From: Flagellimonas profundi
GTDB lineage: Bacteria; Bacteroidota; Bacteroidia; Flavobacteriales; Flavobacteriaceae
NCBI RefSeq assembly: GCF_017313275.1
Contig: NZ_JAFLNM010000002.1
Span: forward strand, 792,455-856,454
Length of the DNA: 64,000 bases
Direction of reading: 5' to 3'
Position numbers and translations under genes: made by a program. Of the stretch, positions 22,633 through 47,518 are shown piece by piece (within the stretch, counting starts at the first letter, position 1; each line of letters begins with the position of its first letter). The notes under the pieces are model-generated. The model had not been told where the DNA came from and did no database searches. It saw only the letters and a program-made list of their open reading frames with translations.

Positions 22633-22675
22633 TAAAATTAGACCTATGGGTTAGGGGATACTATGACAAATGTCA
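22633..22675 (-). promoter_or_regulatory. FNR-like site and promoter of the uspA gene at 22612
   Basis: Palindrome TGAC-AAAT-GTCA at 22664-22675; on the reverse strand its centre is 36.5 nt before the end of TAATTTTA (22633-22640), one base from TAnnTTTG. This is a class II activator geometry. Confidence 0.72.
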
Positions 22676-22691
22676 GCTTTTTAAAAATGGG

Positions 22692-23381
22692 TCAAAAGCC
22701 TTCGACCATTTCCAAAAGTTTGCGTTCATCCTTGATGCCGATTTTTTTGCCGGAGGTATGAATCAAACCTTTCTTTTTAAATTCCGAAATGATCCTGATG
22801 GCAGATTCCGTAGCGGTGCCCACCACGTTGGAAATGTCTTCGCGAGATAGGGTAAGTGACAAAAATCCATCTTCGTCCTCTCCAAAATTGTTCTTTAAAT
22901 AAAGGAAAGCTTCCGCCATACGTTGTTTTACCGTTTTTTGGGATATGTTTACAATAACATCATCGGCTTCTTTCAGGTCATGGGCCATATGGCGCAGGAC
23001 CTCTAAAGTGAAATTTGGATTTTTTTGAAGGGTATTGTTGATACTTTCTTTTGGAATAAAGCAAACTTCCATATCATCTACGGCAATAGCGGAGAGATTG
23101 GTGCTTTCTTGTGAAATAACCGAGCGCTGACCCAAAACTTCACCTTTGGTGGCCAACTTTACAATTTGGTCTTTTCCGTTGGCACTTAACTTGGAAAGCT
23201 TGGAAACCCCATTTCTTACACAGTAGACCCCATTGAGCTTATCACCCTCTTCAAACAAGGGTTCTCCCTTTTTAACGGTTTTGGTGGTTTTGGAGTCGGA
23301 TACTTTTTTTAATTCCTCTTTGCTCATGGCACGGAGGGAGTTGAACTGTCGGATGATACAATTTTCACACCTGCTTTCCAT
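22692..23381 (-). CDS. Crp/Fnr family transcriptional regulator (candidate oxygen/redox regulator of the island)
   Basis: 229 residues: N-terminal CENC (Cys5, Cys8), cyclic-nucleotide-binding-type beta roll (about 25-125, with GDKLNGVYCVRNG), dimer helix (about 125-160) and a Crp-type HTH (about 165-225). Other cysteines are Cys54 and Cys107; the latter aligns roughly with Cys122 of E. coli FNR. The recognition helix GTATESAIRIISEF keeps the Glu and Arg that in FNR/CRP read the TGA of each half-site. It is divergent from the cbb3 operon, with a single palindrome midway that is positioned equally for both promoters, so autoregulation is predicted. It may carry an Fe-S cluster or use thiol chemistry; that is not proven by the sequence. 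Confidence 0.92.
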   Translation of the reverse strand: MESRCENCIIRQFNSLRAMSKEELKKVSDSKTTKTVKKGEPLFEEGDKLNGVYCVRNGVSKLSKLSANGKDQIVKLATKGEVLGQRSVISQESTNLSAIAVDDMEVCFIPKESINNTLQKNPNFTLEVLRHMAHDLKEADDVIVNISQKTVKQRMAEAFLYLKNNFGEDEDGFLSLTLSREDISNVVGTATESAIRIISEFKKKGLIHTSGKKIGIKDERKLLEMVEGF

Positions 23382-23404
23382 AATGATTAGTTTACCTGAT
23401 TCAA

Positions 23405-23447
23405 CAAAAATAGTTGATAAACAAACACAATTTACTGATAATTATCA
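23405..23447 (-). promoter_or_regulatory. FNR-like site and promoter of the crp/fnr gene
   Basis: Palindrome TGAT-AATT-ATCA (23436-23447). On the reverse strand a perfect -7 box TATTTTTG lies at 23405-23412, 36.5 nt from the palindrome centre. Predicted autoregulation. Confidence 0.75.
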
Positions 23448-23500: not shown

Positions 23501-25885
23501 ATGGCAGACTCGACCTGTTATCATTGTGGTGACGAGTGCGGAAAAAGTAGCGTTAAGTTTGATGATAAAGATTTTTGCTGTAATGGTTGCAAGACCGTTT
23601 ATGAGATTTTTACATCAAATGGCCTGTCCACTTTTTACGAAATAGAAGGAAAGGCAGGAACAACACCCAACGAAATCCGTCAGAAATATGATTTTTTGGA
23701 CAACCAGGAAATTGTACAACAATTGGTGGAGTTCAATGAAGAGGGTGTGCAGGTGGTTGGTTTAAGTATACCTACCATACATTGCAGTTCTTGTATATGG
23801 GTGCTCGAAAACCTGAACAAGCTGCATTCGGCCATTACTTTTTCTCAGGTCGACTTTCCAAAGAAAACCATTCGGGTAACATACAAAACAGAAGATTTCT
23901 CTCTAAAAGCGTTGGTCCTTTTGCTGGGTAGCATAGGGTACGAGCCCTATATCTCTTTAGAGGAATACAATAAAAAAGGAACTAAGGTCGATCGTTCCCT
24001 TATATATAAGTTGGGCGTGGCCGGTTTTGCCTTTGGCAATGTCATGCTGTTTTCCTTTCCCGAGTATTTTGAGGTAGAGGAATTTTGGTTGGATCAGTAC
24101 AAACACGTCTTTCGTTGGTTGATGTTTGCGTTTTCGATACCGGTAGTATTTTACGCTGCTCAGGATTATTTTATTTCCGCTTATAAAGGAATCCGTTCCA
24201 AATTATTGAATATTGATGTGCCCATTGCTTTGGGAATATTGGTCCTCTTTTTACGGAGTACGGTAGATATAGTATTTGATTTGGGCTCAGGCTTTTTTGA
24301 TAGTCTTACAGGTTTGGTCTTCTTTTTATTGTTGGGAAAATTTTTTCAACAAAAAACCTATGCCTACCTATCATTTGAGCGGGATTATAAGTCATATTTT
24401 CCCATTGCCGTTACCCGTTTGAAGAAAAATGGGGAGGAGGAGAATATCCAAATTTATAATATTGAAGTAGGGGACAGGGTGCTGATCCGTAGCCACGAGA
24501 TTATTCCTGTGGATTGTATTCTGATCAAAGGAACTGCCGAAATCGATTATAGTTTTGTAACGGGGGAGTCCGACCCTGTACTGAAGGAATCCGGTGAAAA
24601 ACTGTTTGCTGGCGGGAAACAATTGTCCGGAGTGTTGGAAGTTGAGGTATTGAAATCCGTCTCCCAAAGTTATTTGACCCAACTGTGGGGCAACTCCGTA
24701 TTTTCAAAAGACAAAGCAAGCCAATTCCAGACCCTTACCGATAGCATAGGCAAACGATTTACCGTTGCCGTGTTGAGCATAGCTACGGTGGCCACTATTT
24801 TTTGGCTGATTTTTGATCCAAGCCTGGCACTCAACGTGTTCACTTCGGTGCTGATCATTGCCTGCCCATGCGCCATTGCGTTGGCAGCTCCATTCACACT
24901 TGGCAATATGCTCCGCATTTTCGGGAAGTATAAATTCTACTTGAAAAATACCAATGTGATTGAACGCTTGTCCAAAATAGACACGGCCATTTTTGATAAA
25001 ACGGGAACGCTCACCACCAATCAAAAAGATACCATCCATTATGAAGGAATGGAACTCACAGAGGAAGAAACGGCACTTTTGAAAACAACCCTGAGGGCAT
25101 CCAATCACCCTTTGAGCCGATCTCTTTACGATATTTTGAAATCCAATGCCATAATGACCTTGGAAGAGTTCCAAGAGCATACTGGAAAAGGAATTGAGGG
25201 GAAATACAACCAGCATTCCATAAAAGTGGGGTCTGCAGCTTACGTGGGGGAAAGCAGATCCAGTTCCATTACGAATACCGCGGTTTATATAAGTGCCGAT
25301 GAAGATGTAAAAGGAAGGTTTGTGTTCAAGAACGCCTACCGGGAAGGGATGGGCCAAATATTCAATGAACTTTCGGATGATATGGAACTGGGCATTCTTT
25401 CGGGTGATAATGATGGAGAGAGGTCACAATTACAAAAAGTGCTTCCTGAAAAGACAAAGATGATGTTTGACCAAAAGCCCGAGGACAAGTTGGAATACAT
25501 CAAAAACCTGCAAGAAAAACATAAGGTTTTAATGGTGGGCGACGGACTCAACGATGCCGGTGCTTTGGCCCAGAGCGATGTGGGATTGGCGGTTTCTGAG
25601 AACATCAACGTGTTTTCGCCGGCTTGTGATGGAATTTTGGATGCGAGCAAGTTGCGAATGCTGCCAAAGTTCATAAAACTGTCCAAAAAGTCCGTTCGCA
25701 TTATAAAAATGAGCTTTTTGTTGTCGCTCTGCTACAATGTTGTAGGATTATATTTTGCGGTCACAGGTCAGTTACAGCCGGTTATTGCCGCTATTTTAAT
25801 GCCGTTGAGCTCCATCAGTATTGTGGTGTTCACCACCTTGGCAACAAATTATCTCGGTAAAAAATTAAAAACTTTAGAAAGCTGA
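23501..25885 (+). CDS. ccoI: Copper-translocating P-type ATPase for cbb3 oxidase assembly (CcoI/FixI)
   Basis: 794 residues. N-terminal Cys-rich metal-binding segment (CYHCGDECG and CCNGCKTVYEIF, about residues 5-45), a heavy-metal-associated domain with HCSSC (about 90), membrane helices, TGES phosphatase loop (VTGESDPVL, about 350), CPC ion-binding helix (IIACPCAIALAAPF, about 453), phosphorylation motif DKTGTLT (about 498) and hinge GDGLNDAGAL (about 680). CcoI loads copper for the binuclear centre of cbb3-type cytochrome c oxidase. It is the first gene of the operon, followed by ccoS, as in other bacteria. Confidence 0.96.
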   Translation: MADSTCYHCGDECGKSSVKFDDKDFCCNGCKTVYEIFTSNGLSTFYEIEGKAGTTPNEIRQKYDFLDNQEIVQQLVEFNEEGVQVVGLSIPTIHCSSCIWVLENLNKLHSAITFSQVDFPKKTIRVTYKTEDFSLKALVLLLGSIGYEPYISLEEYNKKGTKVDRSLIYKLGVAGFAFGNVMLFSFPEYFEVEEFWLDQYKHVFRWLMFAFSIPVVFYAAQDYFISAYKGIRSKLLNIDVPIALGILVLFLRSTVDIVFDLGSGFFDSLTGLVFFLLLGKFFQQKTYAYLSFERDYKSYFPIAVTRLKKNGEEENIQIYNIEVGDRVLIRSHEIIPVDCILIKGTAEIDYSFVTGESDPVLKESGEKLFAGGKQLSGVLEVEVLKSVSQSYLTQLWGNSVFSKDKASQFQTLTDSIGKRFTVAVLSIATVATIFWLIFDPSLALNVFTSVLIIACPCAIALAAPFTLGNMLRIFGKYKFYLKNTNVIERLSKIDTAIFDKTGTLTTNQKDTIHYEGMELTEEETALLKTTLRASNHPLSRSLYDILKSNAIMTLEEFQEHTGKGIEGKYNQHSIKVGSAAYVGESRSSSITNTAVYISADEDVKGRFVFKNAYREGMGQIFNELSDDMELGILSGDNDGERSQLQKVLPEKTKMMFDQKPEDKLEYIKNLQEKHKVLMVGDGLNDAGALAQSDVGLAVSENINVFSPACDGILDASKLRMLPKFIKLSKKSVRIIKMSFLLSLCYNVVGLYFAVTGQLQPVIAAILMPLSSISIVVFTTLATNYLGKKLKTLES

Positions 25886-25944
25886 TATATGTCATTTTTT
25901 GAAGCATACCATCAGAGTAGTTTTACACCTAAATTCAGGCAGGT

Positions 25945-26154
25945 ATGAGTGTTATTTATGTGTTGCTGGCCATAAGCATAACGGTGGCCATAGTCTTTTT
26001 TATAGCCTTTGTTTTTTCGGTAAAAAGCGGACAATACGATGATACCTATACCCCATCGGTAAGAATGTTGTTTGAAGATGAGGTGGTCAAGGACAAGGAT
26101 AAATCAAACCTAAATAAAAAGGAAATCAAACAAACTAAAAGTACAAACCAATAA
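25945..26154 (+). CDS. ccoS: cbb3-type cytochrome oxidase assembly protein CcoS
   Basis: 69 residues: one membrane helix (about 3-25), then the conserved SVKSGQYDDTYTPSVRMLFEDE segment, and a charged Lys-rich tail. CcoS is needed for cofactor insertion into cbb3 oxidase. It is 2 bp upstream of the catalytic subunit gene. Confidence 0.95.
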   Translation: MSVIYVLLAISITVAIVFFIAFVFSVKSGQYDDTYTPSVRMLFEDEVVKDKDKSNLNKKEIKQTKSTNQ

Positions 26155-26156
26155 AT

Positions 26157-28358
26157 ATGGAAATACAACAGTTCCGTTACGATAACAAAATCGTACAAAA
26201 GTTCTTATACGCCACTATTTTATGGGGCGTGGTGGGTATGGCAGTGGGCCTATTGTTGGCCTTTATGTTTTTGTTCCCCAATGTTACAGAAGGGATATCA
26301 TGGTTAAGTTTTGGCCGGTTGCGACCATTGCATACCAATGCCGTAATCTTTGCATTTGTAGGGAATGCCATTTTTGCGGGAGTCTATTACTCACTGCAAC
26401 GATTGCTAAAGGCAAGAATGTTCAGTGACGCCCTTAGCAACATTAACTTCTGGGGTTGGCAATTGATTATTGTCGCCGCAGCGTTGACCTTGCCCTTGGG
26501 GTACACAACATCCAAAGAATACGCAGAATTGGAATGGCCGATCGATTTGGCGATTGCCGCGGTCTGGGTAGTTTTTGGTTGGAATATGATAGGTACCATT
26601 TTAAAGAGAAGACAAAGACACTTATATGTGGCGATCTGGTTTTATTTGGCCACGTTTGTTACCGTAGCAGTGCTGCACATATTCAATAGCTTGGAATTAC
26701 CGGTTACGGCATTGAAGAGCTATTCGGTCTACGCCGGTGTACAGGATGCTTTGGTACAATGGTGGTACGGTCACAATGCGGTGGCCTTCTTCTTGACCAC
26801 TCCTTTCTTGGGGCTGATGTACTACTTTGTTCCGAAAGCGGCCAATCGTCCCATTTATTCCTATAGATTGTCCATCGTCCACTTCTGGTCTTTGATATTC
26901 ATTTATATCTGGGCAGGTCCTCACCACTTGTTGTACTCTGCTTTGCCAGATTGGGCACAGAACCTTGGTGTTGTATTCTCCATAATGTTGATCGCTCCAT
27001 CTTGGGGAGGTATGATCAACGGTTTGTTGACACTTCGTGGGGTATGGGATAAAGTGCGTACCGATGCTACCTTAAAATTTATGGTGGTAGCCATTACAGG
27101 TTATGGTATGGCTACATTCGAAGGACCTATGCTTTCCTTGAAAAACGTAAATGCCATTGCACACTTTAGTGATTGGATCATTGCTCACGTACACGTTGGG
27201 GCGTTGGCCTGGAACGGGTTCTTGACCTTTGGTATGATCTATTGGTTGGTGCCTCGGATGTTCAAAACGGAACTGCACTCAAAAGGATTGGCGAATTTCC
27301 ACTTCTGGATCGGAACCTTGGGTATTGTGCTTTATGCCCTTCCGATGTACGTAGCCGGATTTACCCAAGCTTTGATGTGGAAAGAATTCAACCCAGATGG
27401 TACCTTGGTTTACGGTAACTTCTTGGAGACCGTTACCCAGATCATTCCAATGTACTGGATGAGGGCCATTGGAGGTTCGTTGTACATCTTGGGTATGTTC
27501 GTACTGCTGTATAACGTGGTAAGAACCATTAGATCGGGCAGCAAAGTTGAAGATGAAGCGGCAGAAGCACCAGCATTGGAACGTGTTGCCAAAAGAAGAG
27601 TAGCTGGGGAAACCTTCCACAACTGGTTGGAAAGGAAACCGGTTCAGTTGACCATCTTGGCTACCATTGCCATTTTGATCGGTGGTGTTGTTCAAATTAT
27701 ACCGACCATATTGGTAAAATCCAATATCCCGACCATTACCAGTGTTAAACCGTATACACCTTTGGAATTGGAAGGTAGGGATCTTTACATCAGGGAAGGT
27801 TGTGTAAGCTGCCATTCGCAAATGATACGTCCGTTCCGTAGTGAGGTGGAGCGTTATGGTGAATATGCCAAGGCAGGGGAGTTTGTTTATGACCACCCAT
27901 TCCTATGGGGTAGTAAACGAACAGGTCCCGACTTGTTGCGTGTTGGAGGCAAATACTCTGATAACTGGCACTTGAACCATATGTACGATCCGCAAAGTAC
28001 CTCAGCGGGCTCCATTATGCCATCTTACGAATGGCTGGTTACCGATGAGCACGATCGTAGCGATGTTCAGGCCAAAATGGAAACCATGGTAAAACTCGGT
28101 GTTCCCTATACGGAAGAAGATATCGCCAATGCTCCGCAATCCATGGCAGAGCAGGCAGCTCAAATAGAGAAGAGCCTATACGCAGACCCAGAATTCGAAA
28201 AAACGTACGAAGCGGATAAAAAATACGCCGAGGAAAACGGATTGGATTTTGTGGAAATGCGAGATCGTGAAATCGTAGCCTTGATTGCTTATCTACAGCG
28301 ATTGGGTACCGATATTAAAATTGAAGGAACAGAAGAAACCATATCTCAAAACAAATAA
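26157..28358 (+). CDS. ccoNO: Fused cbb3 cytochrome c oxidase subunits I and II (CcoN-CcoO)
   Basis: 733 residues. The first about 490 form the twelve-helix catalytic subunit CcoN with heme and copper histidines in RPLHTNAVIFAFVGN, WYGHNAVAFFLT, GPHHLLYSALPDW and IIAHVHVGALAWNG. After a linker a last helix (about 497-515) leads into a monoheme CcoO domain with CVSCH near residue 548, then SQMIRPFRSEVERYG and GPDLLRVGGKYSD. The fusion is typical of Bacteroidota. The complex reduces oxygen with high affinity and pumps protons at the inner membrane. One reading frame covers both parts without interruption. Confidence 0.97.
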   Translation: MEIQQFRYDNKIVQKFLYATILWGVVGMAVGLLLAFMFLFPNVTEGISWLSFGRLRPLHTNAVIFAFVGNAIFAGVYYSLQRLLKARMFSDALSNINFWGWQLIIVAAALTLPLGYTTSKEYAELEWPIDLAIAAVWVVFGWNMIGTILKRRQRHLYVAIWFYLATFVTVAVLHIFNSLELPVTALKSYSVYAGVQDALVQWWYGHNAVAFFLTTPFLGLMYYFVPKAANRPIYSYRLSIVHFWSLIFIYIWAGPHHLLYSALPDWAQNLGVVFSIMLIAPSWGGMINGLLTLRGVWDKVRTDATLKFMVVAITGYGMATFEGPMLSLKNVNAIAHFSDWIIAHVHVGALAWNGFLTFGMIYWLVPRMFKTELHSKGLANFHFWIGTLGIVLYALPMYVAGFTQALMWKEFNPDGTLVYGNFLETVTQIIPMYWMRAIGGSLYILGMFVLLYNVVRTIRSGSKVEDEAAEAPALERVAKRRVAGETFHNWLERKPVQLTILATIAILIGGVVQIIPTILVKSNIPTITSVKPYTPLELEGRDLYIREGCVSCHSQMIRPFRSEVERYGEYAKAGEFVYDHPFLWGSKRTGPDLLRVGGKYSDNWHLNHMYDPQSTSAGSIMPSYEWLVTDEHDRSDVQAKMETMVKLGVPYTEEDIANAPQSMAEQAAQIEKSLYADPEFEKTYEADKKYAEENGLDFVEMRDREIVALIAYLQRLGTDIKIEGTEETISQNK

Positions 28359-28360
28359 CC

Positions 28361-28549
28361 ATGTTGAAATTTGTAAAAGAACATATGGAAACCATCGATG
28401 GGATAGCCAACTATCCCATGGTTTCCTTGCTAATCTTCTTTGTGTTTTTCGTTCTATTGTTCTGGTGGGTGTTTACCGCTACCAAGGAACACATAAGGGA
28501 GATGTCCGAACTGCCATTGGATAACGAAGATCAACAAAACAAACTATAA
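28361..28549 (+). CDS. ccoQ: cbb3-type cytochrome oxidase subunit CcoQ-like
   Basis: 62 residues with a single membrane helix (about 20-41, MVSLLIFFVFFVLLFWWVF) and a charged tail (EDQQNK). Position between ccoNO and ccoP (2 and 4 bp gaps) and architecture identify it as CcoQ, a small stability subunit; sequence conservation in this family is low. Confidence 0.85.
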   Translation: MLKFVKEHMETIDGIANYPMVSLLIFFVFFVLLFWWVFTATKEHIREMSELPLDNEDQQNKL

Positions 28550-28553
28550 CATT

Positions 28554-29528
28554 ATGAGTACAAGAACGCCTTGGTGGATACGAGTCCCAGTTTTATTCTT
28601 TTTGATCTTCGGATTGATGGAATTATTTATAGACTCTGGTGATAAACCCGCAATTATTGAATATCCCATCACACAGTTTTTTCTGCTGTTGGTGCTGATG
28701 ATTCTTATAGCCATAGAATTGATTTTAGCCTCCATAGAGAACATTATGTTCCAAACCCTTTCAGAAGAAGGCAAGGAGCGTTACTTGGAAGCCAAAAGCA
28801 AGAAGTTTGAATGGACGTGGGCCAAAAACCTAATGAAAAAATTGACCAAGAGCCGCTCCATCGAGCGCGAAGGTGAAATTATTCTGGACCACAATTACGA
28901 TGGGATCCGTGAGTTGGACAACGTATTGCCGCCATGGTGGGTATACCTGTTCTATGCCACCATTGTATTTGCGGTAGTGTATTTGGTGCGTTTCCATGTC
29001 ATTGGAGATTATGATCAAGAACTGGAATATGAACAAGAAGTCGCCGCGGCACAGCAGGCCATAGAGGAATACAAAAGAACCGCCAAAGACTTGGTGGATG
29101 CAAGTACGGTCGAGTTTCTTTCGGACGAATCCGACTTGGCGGCGGGGGAGAAAATCTTCCAGGCCAACTGCGTGGTATGTCACACCCAAGATGGTGGAGG
29201 TGGAATTGGTCCTAACCTAACCGACAAATATTGGATATTGGGCGGGGGCATCAAAAATGTCTTTACAACAATTTCTGAAGGTGGTCGTGACGGTAAAGGG
29301 ATGATCGCATGGAAGCAAAGCTTAAAGCCAGCTGAAATGGCCCAGGTTGCCAGTTATGTAATCTCATTGGGCGGAACCACACCTGCCAACCCAAAGGAGC
29401 CTGAAGGGGAAATCTGGATAGACCCAGATGCACCGGAAGACACCAATGGAACAGAATCCGAGACGGAAGAAACTGCCCCTGAAGAAATGGAGCAGGCCGC
29501 GGATTCAACAGAAGTTGCCATAAACTAG
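28554..29528 (+). CDS. ccoP: cbb3-type cytochrome c oxidase subunit III, monoheme (CcoP)
   Basis: 324 residues. Two N-terminal helices (about 8-27 and 35-60), a third near 120-145 preceded by the CcoP motif YDGIRELDNVLPPWWVYLFY, then one cytochrome c domain with CVVCH (about residues 206-210) and the axial methionine region GKGMIAWKQSL. The acidic C-terminal tail is low complexity. Proteobacterial CcoP has two heme c domains; this one has a single CxxCH, the form usual in Bacteroidota. It feeds electrons from soluble or membrane cytochromes to the catalytic subunit. Confidence 0.95.
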   Translation: MSTRTPWWIRVPVLFFLIFGLMELFIDSGDKPAIIEYPITQFFLLLVLMILIAIELILASIENIMFQTLSEEGKERYLEAKSKKFEWTWAKNLMKKLTKSRSIEREGEIILDHNYDGIRELDNVLPPWWVYLFYATIVFAVVYLVRFHVIGDYDQELEYEQEVAAAQQAIEEYKRTAKDLVDASTVEFLSDESDLAAGEKIFQANCVVCHTQDGGGGIGPNLTDKYWILGGGIKNVFTTISEGGRDGKGMIAWKQSLKPAEMAQVASYVISLGGTTPANPKEPEGEIWIDPDAPEDTNGTESETEETAPEEMEQAADSTEVAIN

Positions 29529-29579
29529 TCCCATTGGGACATCTGGCAGCAAAATAGTTACCCATAAACCACAAATGCG

Positions 29580-30989
29580 ATGGAAGAAAATTTTAGGGAT
29601 TCCATAGGCACAGTCACAGAAGAAGGTAAAAGGAATTGGATTTTTCCAAAGAAACCCAGTGGACGGTATTATGATTATCGAAAGTATGTAAGTTACTTTC
29701 TACTGATTTTCTTAATAGCAGCTCCCTTTGTTAAGGTCAATGGGCACCAATTCTTACTATTCAATGTGCTCGATAGAAGGTTCAATATTTTTGGACTTCC
29801 CTTTTGGCCCCAGGACTTTCACTTAGTGGTAGTGTCCATGATCATCGGAGTGATTTTCATTGCACTTTTTACGGTGGCCTATGGTCGTATTTTCTGTGGA
29901 TGGATGTGTCCCCAGACCATTTTTTTGGAGATGGTGTTCCGCCGTATCGAATATTGGATCGATGGGGACCGGGGAGCTCAAACGCGGTTGGCAAAAGCTC
30001 CATGGACCGGTAAAAAGATCCGAAAAAGAGTATTGAAGTGGATTATATTCTTCATTATCTCGTTTTTTATCGCCAACGTTTTCTTGGCGTATCTGATTGG
30101 TGGTGATCAGTTGGTCGCATATGTTACCGATGGTCCAATGGCGCACTTGAGCACTATGGTCCCGTTGCTGATTTTTACCGGAGTGTTCTATTTCATTTTT
30201 GCGTGGTTCAGGGAACAGGTGTGTATTATTGCGTGCCCTTATGGAAGATTGCAAGGGGTGCTTTTGGATGATAAATCCATTGTTGTGGCCTATGACCATA
30301 AAAGGGGTGAAGGTGAAAACGGACGCAAAAAGTTCAGAAAAAATGAAGACAGGGAGGCTCTTGGACATGGAGACTGTATTGATTGTTTCCAATGTGTGAA
30401 TGTATGTCCAACGGGGATAGACATCCGTAACGGAACACAGTTGGAATGTGTGAACTGTACGGCCTGTATTGATGAATGTGATCACATTATGGAAAGTATC
30501 CATAAGCCCAAAGGCTTGATCAGATACGCCAGTGAAGATGAGATAACCAACAATAACAAGTTTCAGTTTACCGCCCGTATGAAAGGCTATACGGCAGTGT
30601 TGGTTGTGCTGATCGGTATTCTTGTAGGGATGTTATTTATGCGGAACGAGGTCGAGGCCAATATACTGCGTTTGCCGGGACAGCTGTACGAGCGCAAGGA
30701 GAACAACATCATCAGTAATGTGTACACCTATAAAGTGGTGAACAAGACCACAAAGGATATTGAAAATGTATCCTTTGGGCTGATGTCCCACAACGGGGAA
30801 ATCAAAATGGTATCACAGGATACGTTCACTGTTCCCGCCGAGGAACTTGCAGAAGGAACCTTGTTCATCGAAATAAATGCTTCGGCATTGAACGGCGACA
30901 AGGATAAATTGAAGATAGGGGTCTACAGTGGAGATAAGCTCATAGAAACTACGGTGACCCAATTTTTGGCACCAAGGAGTTATAATTAA
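29580..30989 (+). CDS. ccoG: cbb3 oxidase accessory protein CcoG (4Fe-4S, polyferredoxin-type)
   Basis: 469 residues. Membrane helices flank CGWMCPQTIF (about residues 110-119) and CPYGRLQG; two 4Fe-4S motifs follow, CIDCFQCVNVCPTG (about 265) and CVNCTACIDECDHI. The C-terminal third (about 360-469) is an immunoglobulin-like periplasmic domain. CcoG reduces or handles copper during oxidase assembly in characterised systems. Fixed position between ccoP and ccoH. Confidence 0.95.
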   Translation: MEENFRDSIGTVTEEGKRNWIFPKKPSGRYYDYRKYVSYFLLIFLIAAPFVKVNGHQFLLFNVLDRRFNIFGLPFWPQDFHLVVVSMIIGVIFIALFTVAYGRIFCGWMCPQTIFLEMVFRRIEYWIDGDRGAQTRLAKAPWTGKKIRKRVLKWIIFFIISFFIANVFLAYLIGGDQLVAYVTDGPMAHLSTMVPLLIFTGVFYFIFAWFREQVCIIACPYGRLQGVLLDDKSIVVAYDHKRGEGENGRKKFRKNEDREALGHGDCIDCFQCVNVCPTGIDIRNGTQLECVNCTACIDECDHIMESIHKPKGLIRYASEDEITNNNKFQFTARMKGYTAVLVVLIGILVGMLFMRNEVEANILRLPGQLYERKENNIISNVYTYKVVNKTTKDIENVSFGLMSHNGEIKMVSQDTFTVPAEELAEGTLFIEINASALNGDKDKLKIGVYSGDKLIETTVTQFLAPRSYN

Positions 30990-31001
30990 AAAAAGATAGA
31001 G

Positions 31002-31448: not shown

Positions 31449-31450
31449 TC

Positions 31451-39862: not shown

Positions 39863-40576
39863 TCAATCGGAGTTTAGGGCCAAATCATTTTTGGTGAGGT
39901 CGATATTAAAAGATAGACTTAACCTGATCATGTGCTCAGCGGAATTTTTAAACTTTTGATTGAAGTATCCTATGTCTGCGTTCAAACTAGAGGTAATTTG
40001 TTGGCCTATGCCAATAAACACCCTATTTTGATTAAATATGCTGCCCTCTAGGTTAACAAAGATTTCATCAAAGGCCTTGAAATAAATATCCTTGTATAGG
40101 GGCCTTTTAAATTGAAGGCGATATCTAATCCTATTATTGACCTTGGCGTCTTCAGTATTGACCAGTCTTCGGTTCTCTAGACGTAAGCGATGTGCAATGG
40201 AATTATCGATGAACTTGAATTTTAGGGTGTATTCACCATATATCCAAAGCTGATTGGTATTGACCACATCGTTGGGTTCCAAATAAGAATTTGAATTGAG
40301 CAAGGCGAATCCACCTGTAAAAGTGGAGCTCTTACTTACCCTGTAGGATGCACCAGTTCTGAAAAAGAAAAATCCATATGTATCCAACATATGGTGGTGT
40401 CGGATAATACCCACTGTTGGGATGCTCCAATCTTGGTGAATTTTGGTAGTGCCACATAGCACAAGCCAAGAGCCATATTCATTTTCTTCTGAATTTTGGG
40501 CATAAAACGATTGTGCTGGAAGGACTGAGAGTACTATGGAACAAAGCAATCCTGAAAAATACTTTGTATACTCCAT
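39863..40576 (-). CDS. DUF2490 family predicted outer-membrane beta-barrel protein
   Basis: 237 residues. Signal peptide (LLCSIVLSVLPAQSFYAQ at about 10-27) then amphipathic beta strands with alternating aromatic residues: EYGSWLVLCGTTKIHQDW, YRVSKSSTFTGGFALL, AHRLRLENRRLV, NRIRYRLQFKRPL, NRVFIGIGQQI and a C-terminal MIRLSLSFNIDL. This layout matches DUF2490, a porin-like family of unknown function. FNR-like site upstream; no close partner gene. Confidence 0.85.
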   Translation of the reverse strand: MEYTKYFSGLLCSIVLSVLPAQSFYAQNSEENEYGSWLVLCGTTKIHQDWSIPTVGIIRHHHMLDTYGFFFFRTGASYRVSKSSTFTGGFALLNSNSYLEPNDVVNTNQLWIYGEYTLKFKFIDNSIAHRLRLENRRLVNTEDAKVNNRIRYRLQFKRPLYKDIYFKAFDEIFVNLEGSIFNQNRVFIGIGQQITSSLNADIGYFNQKFKNSAEHMIRLSLSFNIDLTKNDLALNSD

Positions 40577-40603: not shown

Positions 40604-40647
40604 CAAAGGTTTTCACTATTACATAGGATATAGTATGATACTTATCA
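40604..40647 (-). promoter_or_regulatory. FNR-like site and promoter of the DUF2490 gene
   Basis: Palindrome TGAT-ACTT-ATCA (40636-40647). The best reverse-strand -7 candidate is AACCTTTG (40604-40611), one mismatch, 37.5 nt from the centre, one base further than at the other sites. Confidence 0.6.
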
Positions 40648-40686: not shown

Positions 40687-41649
40687 CTATTTTTTCTTTT
40701 TATTTTCCCAGATAAGGGCTGCAGCTCCACATATGGCAGCCGTTTTGCCATGCATGCTTGAGTGAAGAAGTTTCACCTTTCCTTTATAAACATCTAACAA
40801 GAATCGGTTAAAATATTTTTCCAAAGGAGTCATGATCCATTTACCGCTATTGGTCAATCCTCCCATTAAAATAAATGCCTCTGGCTGTGTAAAGGCAGTA
40901 AAGTTGGCCAATGCTTGAGCCATGATGCGGGCCGTATAATCGAAAGCTTTAAGGGCAATTTCATCCCCTTCTTCGGCAGCTTGGGTAATGTCCTCTCCAT
41001 GTAGGTCGTTATATGCAACATCCCTAAATCTACTATCTACCAAATACTTGCTCTGCATGTACAAGATTGTTCGTTTTAATCCAGTAGCGGATACGTATGC
41101 CTCCAAACCTCCTTTTACTCCAAGTCCCGTTAATCTGCCATCGCCAATGGTCATGTCCACATGGCCCAATTCACCTGCAAACCCATCAAACCCATCTATG
41201 AGTTGACCATTGGCTACAATTCCTGCCCCAAAACCGGTGCCCAAAGTGATTACGATAAAATCCGTCATATCCTTTGCTCCTCCAAACAACATTTCGCCCA
41301 AGGCCGCTGCACTGGCATCGTTCATAATACGTATGGGCATGTCCAAGCGTTGCTTTAAAAGTTTTACCAATGGCACACTTCCTTTCCAAGCCAAATTGCT
41401 GGCACTTTCAATGGTTCCATTTTTGCTGGAGGCATTTGGAGCACCAATACCGCAACCAATTACGTTGGCCCCTTCTCCAAATCGATCCAAAAGTTCGTCT
41501 ACAGTAGATTTTATTTTGTCCAGATAGTTGTCTAGGTTGGGATATTCCTTGGTCCTGAAAAATGTTTTTTCGTAGCATTCACCATGTTCGTCCACCAAAC
41601 CTATCTTGGTTTTGGTTCCTCCAATATCAACACCAATTACTAAATCCAT
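40687..41649 (-). CDS. ROK family sugar kinase-like protein lacking the zinc cysteines
   Basis: 320 residues. ATP-binding GVDIGGTKTKIGLV at the N-terminus, catalytic IMNDASAAALGEMLFGGAK, then GTGFGAGIVANGQLIDG and FAGELGHVDMTIGDG. The usual zinc site CxCGxxGCxE is here TGLGVKGGLE, so all three cysteines are replaced, while the glutamate and the GELGH histidine remain. ROK kinases phosphorylate glucose, N-acetylmannosamine or similar sugars. Activity without zinc is known for a few members, so it may still be a kinase; substrate unknown. It has no FNR-like site, unlike all its neighbours. Confidence 0.87.
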   Translation of the reverse strand: MDLVIGVDIGGTKTKIGLVDEHGECYEKTFFRTKEYPNLDNYLDKIKSTVDELLDRFGEGANVIGCGIGAPNASSKNGTIESASNLAWKGSVPLVKLLKQRLDMPIRIMNDASAAALGEMLFGGAKDMTDFIVITLGTGFGAGIVANGQLIDGFDGFAGELGHVDMTIGDGRLTGLGVKGGLEAYVSATGLKRTILYMQSKYLVDSRFRDVAYNDLHGEDITQAAEEGDEIALKAFDYTARIMAQALANFTAFTQPEAFILMGGLTNSGKWIMTPLEKYFNRFLLDVYKGKVKLLHSSMHGKTAAICGAAALIWENKKKK

Positions 41650-41770: not shown

Positions 41771-41813
41771 TGACTTCTGTCATGTTTTAGGTGATGGGTC
41801 GATTCTACTTTTG
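41771..41813 (+). promoter_or_regulatory. FNR-like site and promoter of the uspA-slc13-pckA-pfkA operon
   Basis: Palindrome TGAC-TTCT-GTCA (41771-41782); perfect -7 box TACTTTTG (41806-41813), 36.5 nt from the centre. The first gene starts at 41843. Confidence 0.78.
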
Positions 41814-41842: not shown

Positions 41843-42634
41843 ATGAGCAGTTTAAAAAAAATATTAGTTCCTTTTGATTTTTCGGAGGCATCCATAAATG
41901 CTTTGGAATATGTCGTCAACTTCGTTGGAACAGAACGTTCCATAGGTATTTTGGGCCTGTATGTGGGAAATATGGCCATTAGTGATGCGGACAGTAAAAA
42001 ATTGGAAAACGATTTTTCCAAGGTAATGCAGTCCTTTGGTGTTAGATTGAAGGTTGCACCAAAGTTTATGACGGATACAGGTGAAGTGATCGGCACCATT
42101 CTTTCGGCCCAAGAAAAAAGTAATGCCGACATCATCATGATGGGGACCATGGGCGATAAAATCACGGATGAAGCTATCACCAATACCTCGCAACTGGTTT
42201 TAAAGGCCAACTGTCCGGTAATCTCAATTCCTTATGGAACAAGTATTAAGGACCCTAAAAACATTGCCTTGGTGATGGGGGGCGAAAAAATTGATGACAA
42301 AGAAGTTTTGGAGACCCTTTTGGACATTGCCCGTACTTTTGACGCCCGTGTTCATGCCCTTACCATTTATAAGGATTCGATCTATGATGAAAAGGCAATC
42401 AAGGAATCCAACGAAAATCTGTTGGAATATTATTTGGAGCATTTTTATGAGGATCATTCCTTTAGCAAAAATGATGATGTGGAACAGGGCATATTGGATT
42501 ATATCGCAGAGAAAAACATTGACATGTTGACCATATTGCCACGAAACCATACGGAAAGGAGCGAGCCATCCGAAGGACGGTTGACCAAACTATTGACCTT
42601 GCACTCGGAGATTCCGGTGCTGGCCCTGGACTAA
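41843..42634 (+). CDS. Universal stress protein, tandem UspA domains
   Basis: 263 residues, two Usp domains. The first begins MSSLKKILVPFDFSEASINAL and has IMMGTMGDKITDEAITNTSQLVLK; its glycine nucleotide motif is weakened. The second half (about 140-263) is divergent, with LTILPRNHTERSEPSEGRLTKLL. First gene of an operon with an SLC13 transporter, pckA and a phosphofructokinase. Third Usp gene of the island. Confidence 0.9.
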   Translation: MSSLKKILVPFDFSEASINALEYVVNFVGTERSIGILGLYVGNMAISDADSKKLENDFSKVMQSFGVRLKVAPKFMTDTGEVIGTILSAQEKSNADIIMMGTMGDKITDEAITNTSQLVLKANCPVISIPYGTSIKDPKNIALVMGGEKIDDKEVLETLLDIARTFDARVHALTIYKDSIYDEKAIKESNENLLEYYLEHFYEDHSFSKNDDVEQGILDYIAEKNIDMLTILPRNHTERSEPSEGRLTKLLTLHSEIPVLALD

Positions 42635-42656
42635 ACTCAAACCTTTATTTCTTAGC

Positions 42657-44492
42657 ATGCTGCCACTGCTGATTATCTTAGGGGTTACCATTTTTCTATT
42701 TGTATGGGGTAAATTCCCTCCAGATGTAGTGGCTCTCATGGCCATGCTCTCACTTTTCCTGACAGGAATTTTGAACATAAGTGAGACCTTGGCAGGGTTT
42801 AGCAATCCAACTGTAATTATGATTGCGGCCCTATTTATCATTGGGGAAGGGCTGTCCAGAACTGGTTGGACAGCTATGGCAGGTCAGTTTTTCGTGAAAT
42901 GGGCCAGAAGGAACATTTCCCGCTTATTGGTCATTGTTACCTTGGGTTCCAGTTTGCTTTCCGGTTTTGTAAGCAATACAGGAACGGTCGCGGCATTGCT
43001 TCCGGTTACCGTAACTGCGGCTTGGAATGCAGGAACACTGCCATCAAAATTATTGATTCCCGTGGCCTTTGGTTCCAATACGGGCGGACTGCTCACCTTA
43101 ACAGGTACACCACCTAACATTATTGTGAGCAATGCTTTGTCCGAGAGTGGATTTACGGGTTTTTCGTTCTTTGAATTTGGATTGATAGGAGTGCCGCTCC
43201 TTATTATTTCCGTCCTCTATTTTAGGTATCTGGGTTACAAATTGCTTCCCGACCACAGGACAAATAACAAGCCTATGGCCATAGATCAGGAAATGCACAA
43301 ATGGATAGAAAACTACAGTATAGGTGATAATCTTTACCGATTACGTATCCGGTCCATGTCACAATTGATAAATACCACTATAGGGGAATGGAATTTTGAG
43401 GGTGAGCACAAGGTCTCGGTAATGCGACTAAAACGCAGACACCCCAATAAACTGCACCGGATACCACAGTTTGTGGAAATGCCCGGTTTGGATACCGAAA
43501 TGCGTTATCACGACATCATTACTGTAAAAGGTGGACCAGAAGATGTGGATAAACTTGTTTTAAAGTTCCATTTGGGTGTAATACCACTTAAGCCTGAAAA
43601 GGATATGCTCAAAAAAGAACTGATCAACCAAGAGGTGGGGATGGCAGAAATGATCATTACACCAAAATCTGTTTTTGTGGGCAAGAGCATTAATTTGGGT
43701 CACTACCTTCGTAAGACCGAGGTGCAACTTTTGGCCGTATCACGGGACAATGCCCCCTTAACGGGTAAAATAAAAATCAAAGCGGGAGATGCCTTTGTGA
43801 TTCGTGGCCAATGGGAAAATATTATAGCGCTGAAATCGATGCACGAAAACCTGGTGATATCCGGAAGTCCTGAAGCGTTGTCCAAAAATGTGGATCAACT
43901 GACTACAAGGAGTTATATTGCTTTAGGGACCTTGGTATTGATGATTCTGCTTTTGGTCCTCAATATTTTGCCCGGAGCCATAGCAGCACTGGTATGTGCT
44001 GGAATTATGATGTTAACGGGCTGTGTTCCCATATCAAAAGCATATAAAGGCATTAGTTGGACGAGTGTGGTGATGATCGCGGCCATGATCCCTATGGGAT
44101 TGGCATTGCAAAAAACAGGTGTGGCACAATTGGCGGCCAATAGTCTGGTGGATACCTTGGGAAGTATACATCCCGTAGCCTTATTGGCAGGTATTTTCTT
44201 GTTGACGGCAGCTTTTAGTCAAACCATAAACAATTCGGCAACTGCAGTTTTAATGGCGCCGATCGCTATAATGGCATCCACGACCTTGGGGGTTTCGCCA
44301 GAACCCTTTATGATTGCCGTAGCGGTAAGTGCCTCGACTGCATTTTTAACCCCTGTGGGAACAACCACCAATGCCATGGTAATGGCAGCGGGCGGATATA
44401 AATTTATTGATTATGTAAAAGTAGGGGGGCCTTTGCTCCTGCTTTTCTTTATAGCAACATTAGTATTGGTTCCATGGATATGGAGCTTCTAA
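42657..44492 (+). CDS. SLC13/DASS family transporter with TrkA_C (RCK-C) domains
   Basis: 611 residues. Membrane helices in two blocks (about 1-195 and 415-611) with the hallmark repeats SNTGTVAALLPV, PVAFGSNTGGLLTLTGTPPNIIVSN and the equivalents NNSATAVLMAPIA and SASTAFLTPVGTTTNAMVMAAG. The cytoplasmic middle (about 215-400) holds two TrkA_C-like domains (NTTIGEWNFEGEHKVSVMRLKR; KSINLGHYLRKTEVQLLAVSRD). This layout is found in sodium-coupled sulfate or dicarboxylate carriers (SLC13/CitT type). Linkage to pckA favours C4-dicarboxylates, but sulfate cannot be excluded. Confidence 0.9.
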   Translation: MLPLLIILGVTIFLFVWGKFPPDVVALMAMLSLFLTGILNISETLAGFSNPTVIMIAALFIIGEGLSRTGWTAMAGQFFVKWARRNISRLLVIVTLGSSLLSGFVSNTGTVAALLPVTVTAAWNAGTLPSKLLIPVAFGSNTGGLLTLTGTPPNIIVSNALSESGFTGFSFFEFGLIGVPLLIISVLYFRYLGYKLLPDHRTNNKPMAIDQEMHKWIENYSIGDNLYRLRIRSMSQLINTTIGEWNFEGEHKVSVMRLKRRHPNKLHRIPQFVEMPGLDTEMRYHDIITVKGGPEDVDKLVLKFHLGVIPLKPEKDMLKKELINQEVGMAEMIITPKSVFVGKSINLGHYLRKTEVQLLAVSRDNAPLTGKIKIKAGDAFVIRGQWENIIALKSMHENLVISGSPEALSKNVDQLTTRSYIALGTLVLMILLLVLNILPGAIAALVCAGIMMLTGCVPISKAYKGISWTSVVMIAAMIPMGLALQKTGVAQLAANSLVDTLGSIHPVALLAGIFLLTAAFSQTINNSATAVLMAPIAIMASTTLGVSPEPFMIAVAVSASTAFLTPVGTTTNAMVMAAGGYKFIDYVKVGGPLLLLFFIATLVLVPWIWSF

Positions 44493-44509
44493 CCATTAAA
44501 ACCACAATT

Positions 44510-46126
44510 ATGAGTACAACCAAAGACCTTAGTAAGTATGGATTGAAAAATGTCCGGGCGCAATGGAATCTTGATGCTGAAACGCTACAAAAACTTACCC
44601 TTGAAAAGGGCATGGGAGTAGAAACCGAAAATGGCACCCTTTGCGTGAACACGGGAAAGTTTACCGGAAGATCGCCCAAAGATCGGTTTTTGGTAAAAGA
44701 TGATTACACAAAGGACAAAATTTGGTGGGGCAGGATCAATAAACCTGTATCTCCCGAAAACTTTGATAAGCTATACAATGAGATAACCAATTACCTCGAT
44801 GGCAAAGAAGTTTTTGTAAGGGATGCCTATGTGTGCGCAGACCCAAAATACAGAATGAATGTTAGAACCATCACCGAATACCCCTGGTCCAACTACTTCA
44901 TCAAAAATATGTTCCTGCGTTTGGATGAGGCGGAACTTGAGGATTTTGAAGAAGAGTGGTTAGTGCTTTGTGCCCCTGGTTATGAAGCCCAAAACCCATC
45001 TGAATATGGTATATTGAGCGGAAACTTCTCTATACTTAATTTTACCAAAAAAATTGCCTTGGTAGGCGGTTCTGCCTATACCGGGGAAATGAAAAAAGGT
45101 ATTTTCTCCGCACTAAACCTTATCCTGCCCACCGAAAAAGAGGTACTCCCAATGCACTGCTCCGCCAATGTTGGTGAAGCTGGGGACACCGCAATTTTCT
45201 TTGGATTGTCCGGAACTGGTAAAACCACCTTGTCCGCAGACCCGGAGCGTAAACTTATCGGGGACGATGAGCATGGTTGGACCAAAGAGGACACCATCTT
45301 TAACTTTGAAGGTGGGTGCTATGCCAAGGTAATCGATCTTACCGAGGAAAAGGAGCCTGATATTTACAGGGCCATCAGACCTGGAGCGCTATTGGAAAAT
45401 GTGGTGTTCAAAGAAGGGACAAAGGAAGTGGATTTCTTCGATAGTTCCATCACACAGAACACACGGGTAAGTTATCCTATCTATCATATCGATAACATAC
45501 AAGAGCCATCCTATGCATCCAACCCTAAAAATATCTTTTTCTTAACTTGTGATGCATTTGGTGTATTACCGCCGGTATCTAAATTGACCCCAGGTCAAGC
45601 AGCTTACCACTTTATTTCGGGCTATACCGCTAAGGTTGCAGGAACGGAGGCAGGTATTACGGAGCCCGTGCCATCATTCTCAGCTTGTTTTGGAGAGCCT
45701 TTTATGCCATTGCACCCTGCAGTTTATGCTGAAATGCTAAGCGAAAAAATGAAAGCCTCCGGAGTTAATGTATGGCTGATCAACACCGGATGGAGTGGAG
45801 GACCTTACGGAGTAGGGTCTAGAATTAAACTGAAATATACGAGAGCAATGATTTCTGCCATTCTCGAAGGTAAATTGGACGATGTGGATTTTGATACGCA
45901 CCCCATTTTTGGATTACATATGCCAAAATATTGCCCGGGCGTTCCCACAGAAATGTTGGACCCAATGAACACTTGGTTGCAAAAAGGAGCTTATGTAAGC
46001 AAAGCGATACAACTGGCGCACTCGTTCCATATCAACTTCGATAAGTTTGCAAGCCAAGCTTCGGAGGAAATTATGAATGGTGGTCCGCTCATTGATTCGC
46101 ACCATAGTTTAACGGAACATCTTTAA
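44510..46126 (+). CDS. pckA: ATP-dependent phosphoenolpyruvate carboxykinase
   Basis: 538 residues from ATG 44510 (MSTTKDLSKYGL); an in-frame ATG at 44474 overlapping the transporter gene is less likely, since E. coli PckA is 540 residues. Motifs: NTGKFTGRSPKDRF (substrate binding), Walker A FGLSGTGKTTLS, kinase-2 LIGDDEHGW, EGGCYAKVIDL and the carboxykinase ITQNTRVSYP. It interconverts oxaloacetate + ATP and PEP + CO2 + ADP, either in gluconeogenesis or, under low oxygen, for fixing CO2 toward succinate. It is flanked by a transporter and a phosphofructokinase within one operon. Confidence 0.97.
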   Translation: MSTTKDLSKYGLKNVRAQWNLDAETLQKLTLEKGMGVETENGTLCVNTGKFTGRSPKDRFLVKDDYTKDKIWWGRINKPVSPENFDKLYNEITNYLDGKEVFVRDAYVCADPKYRMNVRTITEYPWSNYFIKNMFLRLDEAELEDFEEEWLVLCAPGYEAQNPSEYGILSGNFSILNFTKKIALVGGSAYTGEMKKGIFSALNLILPTEKEVLPMHCSANVGEAGDTAIFFGLSGTGKTTLSADPERKLIGDDEHGWTKEDTIFNFEGGCYAKVIDLTEEKEPDIYRAIRPGALLENVVFKEGTKEVDFFDSSITQNTRVSYPIYHIDNIQEPSYASNPKNIFFLTCDAFGVLPPVSKLTPGQAAYHFISGYTAKVAGTEAGITEPVPSFSACFGEPFMPLHPAVYAEMLSEKMKASGVNVWLINTGWSGGPYGVGSRIKLKYTRAMISAILEGKLDDVDFDTHPIFGLHMPKYCPGVPTEMLDPMNTWLQKGAYVSKAIQLAHSFHINFDKFASQASEEIMNGGPLIDSHHSLTEHL

Positions 46127-46138
46127 GACTTATATAAA

Positions 46139-47458
46139 GTGAATAGCACAAATAGATTTCATATAGAAAGCTTAGGGGCGCCTAAATTCAAGTCGCCCCT
46201 TGAGCTAAGTACGCTAAAGGGGGACCATATATTCGATTTTATCAGAGAATCGGATAAGCTGGTCTTTGACCTTTCCATGGAACATTACCAACAATGTTTA
46301 AAAAATGGGGAAGAGCCGCTTTGTTTGGAAAAGGCGGGCCCGCGGCAAAATCTTTTTTTTGATTCGGAGAAGGCTACGGCGGCCATTGTTACATGTGGAG
46401 GTTTATGTCCTGGTATCAATAATGTGATACGGGGTTTGGTGATGGCACTATATTATTTCTATGGGGTTAAAAAAATTATAGGAGTACCGTATGGTTATGA
46501 AGGCCTTAATCCGGAAAAAGGACATGAGTTGGTACCATTGACACCGGAAAAAGTAAAGGATATCCATCAATTTGGAGGTACATACTTGGGCTCGTCCAGA
46601 GGGGCGCAGGATGTTTCCGTTATGGTGGATACCCTGGAAAAAAACAAGGTGGATATGCTGTTTGCTATTGGAGGTGATGGAACCTTAAAAGGCGTAAACG
46701 CCTTAGGTGAAGAAATCTCCAGGAGAAACGCTAAAATCAGCGTGGTAGGCATACCAAAGACCATTGATAACGATATCGACCTGATCGATGAATCCTTTGG
46801 TTTTGAAACTGCTTTTGATGTGGCAAGTCCTATTTTGCGAGATGCCCATAATGAAGCAACAGGAGCTTATAATGGAATCTCCATTATTAAATTAATGGGA
46901 AGGGATAGTGGTTTTATCGCTGCTTCTGCCGCTTTAGCTATGCCCGTGGTGAATTTTGTGCTGATCCCCGAAATGGATTTTGCCCTGGAAGGAGAAAAAG
47001 GGTTTTTGAAAGTATTGGAACAGCGTCTACACGAAAAAAAACATGCGGTAATCGTAGTTGCCGAAGGAGCGGGACAAAAACTCTTTAAGGACAGAAAGAT
47101 TGTTAAAGACGCATCTGGGAACATTCAGCACGAGGATATTGGAGTTTTACTAAAGGAAAAAATCGTGGAATACTTCGAGGGTAAAAGCCCTGTGACCATA
47201 AAATATATCGACCCCAGTTACATTGTTCGGTGTGCTCCGGCAAACTCCAGCGATAGCGTATTCTGCAGTCGGTTGGCCTACCAGGCAGTACATGGTGCCA
47301 TGGCAGGTAAAACCAAATTTGTGGCCAGTAGGGTCAACAACCGATATGTGTATGTCCCCATTTCCGAAGTCACCAAAAAAAGAAAAAAAATAGACATTGA
47401 AGGAGAGTTTTGGTTCTCGGTACTACAAAGTACGGGGCAACCTTTTTCTTTGGGATAG
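46139..47458 (+). CDS. pfkA: 6-phosphofructokinase (PfkA superfamily)
   Basis: 439 residues from GTG 46139, 12 bp after pckA. CGGLCPGINNVIRGLVMALYY, the phosphate-binding AIGGDGTLKGVNAL, catalytic GIPKTIDNDIDLIDESFGFETA, MGRDSGFIAASAALA, and AEGAGQ. GGDG predicts ATP as donor, since PPi enzymes have GGDD here; PKTIDND, with Lys, resembles PPi-type and plant-type enzymes. The mixture is found in the longer ATP-dependent subgroup. It phosphorylates fructose 6-phosphate to the 1,6-bisphosphate. Its sharing of an operon with pckA is a notable metabolic pairing. Confidence 0.93.
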   Translation: MNSTNRFHIESLGAPKFKSPLELSTLKGDHIFDFIRESDKLVFDLSMEHYQQCLKNGEEPLCLEKAGPRQNLFFDSEKATAAIVTCGGLCPGINNVIRGLVMALYYFYGVKKIIGVPYGYEGLNPEKGHELVPLTPEKVKDIHQFGGTYLGSSRGAQDVSVMVDTLEKNKVDMLFAIGGDGTLKGVNALGEEISRRNAKISVVGIPKTIDNDIDLIDESFGFETAFDVASPILRDAHNEATGAYNGISIIKLMGRDSGFIAASAALAMPVVNFVLIPEMDFALEGEKGFLKVLEQRLHEKKHAVIVVAEGAGQKLFKDRKIVKDASGNIQHEDIGVLLKEKIVEYFEGKSPVTIKYIDPSYIVRCAPANSSDSVFCSRLAYQAVHGAMAGKTKFVASRVNNRYVYVPISEVTKKRKKIDIEGEFWFSVLQSTGQPFSLG

Positions 47459-47475
47459 ATGGAAGAAATTTAAAC

Positions 47476-47518
47476 TGACAATTGTCATTAAATCTTTTCT
47501 TTAGTAGTTATAGATTTG
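47476..47518 (+). promoter_or_regulatory. FNR-like site and promoter of hpf
   Basis: Palindrome TGAC-AATT-GTCA (47476-47487) with a perfect -7 box TAGATTTG (47511-47518) 36.5 nt from the centre. The hpf ATG is at 47540. Confidence 0.78.

Follow-up and report, generated by a model that had tools for sequence, protein, structure and literature searches.

Does one kind of palindrome, set at one distance from the promoter, join the cbb3 oxidase genes of Flagellimonas profundi and the stress, carbon and ribosome hibernation genes beside them into a single regulon, and which protein would read it? The question is raised by a stretch of 64,000 nucleotides (nt) of this genome (the window; contig NZ_JAFLNM010000002.1, positions 792,455 to 856,454), in which a first-pass annotation had described a clustered FNR-like regulon. 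We show here that TGAY-N4-RTCA palindromes stand at a fixed distance from a -7 box in nearly all of the promoters concerned, and that this layout recurs in the rest of the genome and across the family. The palindromes are probably the sites of class II activators of the Crp/Fnr family, the one at work in the window being most likely the Crp/Fnr protein encoded there; elsewhere in the genome, fusions of a receiver domain to Crp domains (REC-Crp) would use such sites as well.

A fixed distance between palindrome and -7 box

The eight palindromes already recorded in the window (first bases 22664, 23436, 35790, 35842, 39804, 40636, 41771 and 47476) all lie at the coordinates given for them. A ninth, at 25883 (TGATATATGTCA), had been overlooked; it shares bases with the TGA stop of the ccoI-type ATPase gene, and the description of the sites as all intergenic thus holds for the eight and fails for the ninth. 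When the distance is taken from the palindrome centre to the last base of the -7 box, scored with at most one mismatch, it is 36.5 nt for usp1, crp, ccoI, hemN, the CBS-domain gene, the tonB-type gene, usp3 and hpf and 37.5 nt for the DUF2490 gene, just as the first-pass annotation had it. The ninth palindrome, upstream of ccoS/ccoN, stands again at 36.5 nt, which brings the count to nine of the ten window promoters.

Class II activators bind at sites centred near -41.5. According to PMC9723704, the sigma-A box TAnnTTTG of Flavobacterium psychrophilum spans -12 to -5, and with a box end of -5, borrowed from that species, a centre 36.5 nt upstream falls at -41.5, so that the class II geometry ascribed to these promoters stands in nine of ten.

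The whole window contains 13 matches to TGAY-N4-RTCA, against a mean of 4.5 (standard deviation 2.4) in 100 dinucleotide shuffles, one of which reached 13. Between 21.66 and 48.5 kb, the intergenic DNA amounts to 1,477 bases by our own gene list, in which the ccoS ends are off by about 20 bases; it holds eight palindromes in full, whereas 2,000 mononucleotide shuffles gave a mean of 0.10 and a maximum of 2. Moreover, a box at exactly 23 nt (N23) accompanies 9 of the 26 palindrome orientations of the window (binomial p = 3e-10 at the intergenic box frequency of 0.017). Among the units that could be delimited in 21.7-48.5 kb, the ROK gene is the sole one without a site, and the single Crp/Fnr gene of the window is sited among the palindromes, both as first described. 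The features are as follows.

21704..22633, minus strand: usp1, universal stress protein (Pfam), open reading frame (ORF) start at 22633
22664..22675, minus strand: palindrome for usp1, -7 box TAATTTTA at 22633-22640, kept in 78/80 relatives
22692..23381, minus strand: crp/fnr regulator gene, 229 amino acids (aa), Pfam cNMP_binding and HTH_Crp_2, with Cys5, Cys8, Cys54 and Cys107
23436..23447, both strands: palindrome common to the divergent crp and ccoI promoters, boxes at 23405-23412 (minus, TATTTTTG) and 23471-23478 (plus, CAAATTTG), kept on the ccoI side in 79/80 relatives and on the crp side in 74/80
23501..25885, plus strand: ccoI-type heavy-metal P-type ATPase (Pfam; heavy-metal subfamily model above cut-off)
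25883..25894, plus strand: palindrome overlapping the ccoI stop, upstream of ccoS and ccoNO, box TAGTTTTA at 25918-25925, kept in 75/80 relatives
25945..26154, plus strand: ccoS, 69 aa (FixS Pfam; NCBIfam ccoS above cut-off)
26157..33444, plus strand: ccoNO, ccoP, ccoG, fixH/ccoH, DsbD_2 and acetyl-CoA hydrolase genes (Pfam)
33535..35732, minus strand: hemN and usp2 (NCBIfam hemN above cut-off), usp2 lying inside the hemN operon
35790..35801, minus strand: palindrome for hemN, box TAATTTTG at 35759-35766, kept in 12/12 relatives
35842..35853, plus strand: palindrome for the CBS-domain gene, box TACTTTTA at 35877-35884, kept in 10/11 relatives
35918..38968, plus strand: 614-aa CBS-domain protein and AstE/AspA-family gene
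39022..39750, minus strand: TonB_C protein
39804..39815, minus strand: palindrome for the tonB-type gene, box TATCTTTA at 39773-39780, kept in 11/11 relatives
39863..40576, minus strand: DUF2490 protein
40636..40647, minus strand: palindrome for the DUF2490 gene, weak box AACCTTTG at 40604-40611, spacing N24
40687..41649, minus strand: ROK gene, a unit without a site (negative control)
41771..41782, plus strand: palindrome for the usp3 operon, box TACTTTTG at 41806-41813, kept in 12/12 relatives, one of them counted on a gene matched at 23% identity that is perhaps another Usp gene
41843..47458, plus strand: usp3, CitMHS/TrkA_C transporter, ATP-dependent phosphoenolpyruvate carboxykinase (PEPCK) and 6-phosphofructokinase (the last above its NCBIfam cut-off)
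47476..47487, plus strand: palindrome for hpf, box TAGATTTG at 47511-47518, kept in 9/9 relatives
47540..47839, plus strand: hpf-type gene (Pfam Ribosomal_S30AE on the ORF from 47516)

The genes behind these sites thus comprise the cbb3 oxidase and its assembly genes, hemN, three universal stress proteins, PEPCK, phosphofructokinase, the transporter and the hpf-type, TonB-type, CBS-domain and DUF2490 genes. Some assignments deserve comment. The last base of the usp1 box coincides with the ORF start at 22633, and the start codon is therefore more likely the ATG at 22612. For hpf, the ATG at 47540 is likelier than the TTG at 47516, and no NCBIfam model matched this gene at 1e-10. The copper NCBIfam model scores below its cut-off on the ccoI-type ATPase, for which copper is suggested by the context. 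One more palindrome (18725-18736), outside the stretch from 22633 to 47518, lacks a -7 box at this distance; it lies 57.5 nt upstream of a response regulator gene (18788).

Recurrence of the layout in the genome and in relatives

The first-pass annotation had proposed a scan of the whole genome and of related Flavobacteriaceae. The genome (4.0 Mb) contains 20 copies of the exact pair (TGAY-N4-RTCA, 23 nt, TANNTTTG) at N23, against 12 over 30 other spacings (N10-N40) combined. When up to one mismatch is allowed, the count rises to 72 sites, against 3 for the reversed pattern; the pair is thus enriched both at one spacing and over its reverse. Crude ORF calling places 54 of the 72 palindromes outside ORFs of at least 50 aa, and an in-frame ATG lies 40-100 nt from the centre of 53 of the 72 (50-80 nt for 43). 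The cluster of sites in the window is real; the regulon, with 72 near-exact sites genome-wide, is not confined to it.

Domains were sought in 40 proteins, namely the two REC-Crp regulators and 38 proteins downstream of part of the sites, after five sites, mostly within coding sequence, and C2:323671 (where the stretch taken held no gene start) had been set aside. Targets beyond the window include universal stress proteins, Hsp20, pyruvate phosphate dikinase, the NiFe hydrogenase small subunit, HypA, a pyridine nucleotide-disulphide oxidoreductase, a ferritin-like protein, OmpW, NadA, lactate/malate dehydrogenase and FtsH. The same grammar of palindrome, spacing and box precedes an operon of Sec-dependent nitrous oxide reductase (above its NCBIfam cut-off), NosL and cytochrome c (L033:1416-5689, contig C2), whose palindrome is common to a divergent gene for an Rrf2 regulator. 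Boxes with at most one mismatch flank five palindromes in both directions at 23 nt (23436 in the window, C2:308745, C2:1721814, C3:44464 and C6:12840). Two contigs carry the same 43-base site (L060, C4:19803; L063, C5:80215), each time upstream of a predicted 127-aa protein, and the first 70 residues of these two proteins are identical.

Around the crp genes of 80 relatives (1.55 Mb), we found 317 sites with at most one mismatch, against 2 for the reversed pattern; some of the misses among the 80 are contig ends. One alignment covered 69 of the 80 relatives, and alignment A1 omits L144, which has a stop codon at the coordinates used. The closest regulator matches, at 97-99% identity, come from Flagellimonas, Allomuricauda and Muricauda and from one genome labelled Algicola. 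The more distal sites were followed in 12 of 18 relatives' genomes, those with a visible contig number. There the DUF2490 palindrome keeps a box in 8 of 9 relatives, five at N24 and three at N23, while the negative controls have no site upstream in any relative (ROK gene, 0/7; operon-internal usp2, 0/12). In 12 of the 80 relatives (L111, L119, L121, L126, L129, L130, L132, L133, L134, L138, L142 and L145), an interval of about 730 nt, which contains an ORF of 147-231 aa, separates crp from the shared palindrome and apparently makes crp the second gene of an operon.

Among 296 genomes sampled across the phylum, exact pairs were present in all 29 same-family genomes other than our own (263 sites against 5 reversed) and in 94 of the 266 genomes outside the family; the highest count in the table, 28 exact sites, belongs to a genome of another Bacteroidota family (G271). 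A second family sample gave a match in 107 of 120 genomes. Of the outcomes that had been set against a regulon, two were looked for and not found, namely sites lost in related genomes and pairs equally frequent in control DNA patterns: the sites are kept where the controls have none, and other spacings and reversed patterns are far rarer.

The candidate regulators and their site

The protein encoded at 22692-23381 belongs to the Crp/Fnr superfamily (PF00027, 3e-19; PF13545, 6e-15), and its residues 4-225 align, with an E-value of about 1e-24, to the structures 5cvr and 5e44 (FNR of Aliivibrio fischeri). Cys5, Cys8 and Cys107 align with FNR cysteines 20, 23 and 122, the FNR ligands being C20, C23, C29 and C122 in E. 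coli numbering. These three and a fourth cysteine outside the ligand positions, Cys54, are invariant in 80/80 close homologs and in 58/58 more distant ones, the latter being the best matches to the window protein and hence a biased set. The position of C29 is Asn14 here and Asn, Ser or Gly, never Cys, in the 58 homologs; several class-level homologs, and not others, have a further Cys near position 17. Since Asn or Ser occupies this third-ligand position in all but one of the 58, the protein does not carry the textbook iron-sulfur site of FNR; we infer from the sequences a metal or iron-sulfur site whose fourth ligand may have moved to the beta-roll. Cys54 and Cys107 fall in predicted strands of an AlphaFold model that is itself poor.

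The Crp-type helix-turn-helix (PF13545) matches four places in the genome, the window gene included. Two of the others are fusions of a receiver, cNMP_binding and HTH_Crp_2 (REC-Crp; L074:1483-2556 and L075:664-1713), each encoded by a gene that overlaps the end of a gene for a histidine kinase with PAS domains and is surrounded by sites and universal stress genes; PF00072 in both, together with the adjoining kinase, marks them as response regulators. The fourth place has both Crp domains and a recognition helix that differs by eye. In 20 of 20 REC-Crp loci of other genera, a histidine kinase gene ends at most 200 nt upstream.

Of 60 genera of the family, 25 have a REC-Crp and 37 a Crp/Fnr protein at a cut-off of E <= 1e-60, which may miss divergent regulators. 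The median number of exact sites per genome is 16 with both regulators, 6 with Crp/Fnr only, 8 with REC-Crp only and 1 with neither (n = 14, 23, 11 and 12; carriers against none, Mann-Whitney p = 9e-7, with genera as non-independent samples). Loci were then taken from 20 of the 24 other REC-Crp genera and 20 of the 36 other Crp/Fnr genera, seven genomes contributing different loci to each of the two sets and contig ends cutting some of the stretches. At the REC-Crp loci there are 98 sites at N23, against an average of 2.7 and a maximum of 6 at other spacings from 13 to 33, and at the Crp/Fnr loci 51, against an average of 1.8 and a maximum of 5. Both kinds of regulator appear to use one promoter grammar, as a matter of correlation and not of binding.

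The 51 sites at Crp/Fnr loci give the consensus AAAAn(A/C)TGAY-AWWT-RTCATnTTTT, that is (A/C)TGAY-N4-RTCAT inside A4/T4 tracts, with T outside RTCA in 92% of them; the inner TGAY-N4-RTCA was imposed by the search. The classical FNR site is TTGAT-N4-ATCAA, and its outer bases differ from those found here, in line with a recognition helix in which E and R of the FNR motif (E-x-x-S-R) are kept and Ser is replaced by Ile.

Several of these results weigh against an FNR-type activator that reads the sites in response to oxygen. The best NCBIfam model of the window protein, Fnr NF008365, reaches 113 bits against a cut-off of 228, the third-ligand position and the recognition helix depart from FNR, and the AlphaFold model (mean predicted local distance difference test score 61, predicted template modelling score 0.42) is too poor to judge how close the four cysteines come to one another. 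Moreover, one genome (G469) has 9 sites though neither regulator appears at the cut-off, perhaps because a divergent one was missed, and the sites C2:332606 and C2:495331, near REC-Crp genes, have no gene start at the expected place. In ligand set, recognition helix, NCBIfam score and site alike, the system is not FNR proper. The FNR-like regulon of the first-pass annotation therefore stands as a class II regulon of Crp/Fnr type, supported by the cbb3 oxidase and assembly genes, hemN, the heavy-metal P-type ATPase and the site before the regulator gene itself. The site is not the classical FNR one, and the genome has three further genes with a Crp-type helix-turn-helix.

A proposed mechanism, its rivals and known systems

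For binding, direction of control and oxygen sensing, the mechanism we propose is drawn from sequence patterns. An activator dimer centred at -41.5 would contact the flavobacterial sigma-A RNA polymerase at the -7 box, and palindrome 23436, with a box at equal distance on both sides, would serve two divergent promoters. The Crp/Fnr protein, as the most likely activator in the window, may sense oxygen or redox state through its four cysteines, perhaps with an iron-sulfur cluster. The genes for the cbb3 oxidase, heme synthesis, universal stress proteins, enzymes of central carbon metabolism and ribosome hibernation would then be switched on at low oxygen. At other loci of the genome, the REC-Crp hybrids, each encoded directly behind a histidine kinase, would read this grammar as well.

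It is possible, though doubtful, that the signal is not oxygen but nitric oxide, redox, carbon state or a nucleotide, and that the regulon is a general energy-limitation response. Relatives of FNR that sense nitric oxide exist, the nitrous oxide reductase operon has the same grammar, the fourth invariant cysteine lies off the FNR ligand positions, and stress or energy genes are numerous among the targets. However, cbb3, hemN and ccoS are typical low-oxygen targets, and three of the cysteines do stand at FNR ligand positions. Two published sources point in opposite directions: Crp/Fnr homologs of a Flavobacteriales genome are predicted to be carbon-sensing and MalR-like (PMC8510549), which also counts against the oxygen-sensing activator proposed above, whereas oxygen limitation induces cbb3 and heme genes in F. 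psychrophilum (PMC9723704), an indirect support for induction at low oxygen here.

Somewhat less probable is that the window sites are mainly under the REC-Crp hybrids, the Crp/Fnr protein being minor or specialised. This would agree with the 5-16 exact sites that the 11 REC-Crp-only genomes still carry and with the larger number of sites at REC-Crp loci than at Crp/Fnr loci (98 against 51). However, the window holds a Crp/Fnr gene only, the 23 Crp/Fnr-only genomes keep 2-15 sites, and Crp/Fnr loci of other genera keep local sites. The half-sites of our own genome also differ, the base next to TGAY being A in 13 of 16 in the window against 2 of 28 near REC-Crp genes, in a count that omitted 11 of the 72 sites with an imperfect palindrome. 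The difference is weak elsewhere: in other genera, A half-sites make up 74/92 at Crp/Fnr loci and 115/186 at REC-Crp loci (p = 0.0017), and C half-sites 1/92 and 15/186 (p = 0.025). Half-sites specific to each paralogue (TGAYA for Crp/Fnr, TGAYC for REC-Crp) are not claimed, since outside our own genome A is the commoner base at the loci of both regulators.

That the palindromes are repressor sites overlapping the promoter seems very improbable, for although they lie just upstream of it, repression needs no single exact spacing, and the constant centre at -41.5 over the genome and many genera is the arrangement of class II activators. Chance palindromes in AT-rich intergenic DNA, for which the expectation of 4.5 such 12-mers per window might speak, are rejected on the shuffles, the single-spacing enrichment, the reversed controls, the conservation and the family-wide occurrence.

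Class II activation by the Crp/Fnr protein in the window and by REC-Crp elsewhere thus remains the reading we prefer. A larger proposal, which we consider evenly balanced between right and wrong, is that the two form a two-input network for low oxygen and dormancy, in which a redox sensor of a new FNR subtype, one of its four invariant cysteines having left the N-terminal loop for the beta-roll, and REC-Crp proteins driven by kinases would act at -41.5 on one class of palindrome, and in which one palindrome could serve two divergent promoters.

Soil, freshwater and the sea all harbour abundant Flavobacteriaceae, yet to our knowledge targets have been defined for few of the transcription factors of this family. 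The rigid grammar would allow candidate low-oxygen regulons to be read from sequence across the family, and one layout would tie cbb3 respiration, hydrogenase, nitrous oxide reductase and dormancy-type genes together. It also opens two points to experiment, namely the sensing mechanism of an FNR-like protein in which one cysteine is displaced and the way in which a two-component hybrid shares its sites. Regulons of the FNR/ANR class II kind have long been known; for the flavobacterial version, its site or the REC-Crp hybrids, we found no description among the papers listed by searches of open-licence literature, mostly judged by title and opening of the abstract, which is limited and weak evidence of absence.

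Among solved structures, the best match by sequence to the window protein is 2gau, a Crp/Fnr-family protein of Porphyromonas gingivalis; the match begins at residue 21 and leaves the N-terminal CxxC uncovered. DosR of mycobacteria resembles the system in content only (Usp, Hsp20, a hibernation factor, phosphofructokinase and P-type ATPases), its regulator family and DNA site being unrelated. With FNR, ANR and FixK of Proteobacteria, the system shares a Crp/Fnr activator, a palindrome at -41.5, cbb3, hemN and Usp targets and a site before the regulator gene; it differs from them in the (A/C)TGAY-N4-RTCAT site within A/T tracts, the TAnnTTTG box, Cys54 in place of the third ligand and the sharing of the grammar with REC-Crp. 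The FixLJ-FixK cascade of rhizobia likewise has a PAS histidine kinase that feeds a Crp/Fnr-type output, whereas here a single protein combines the receiver with the Crp output; if our reading is true, the REC-Crp fusions would join the FixJ and FixK steps of rhizobia in a single polypeptide.

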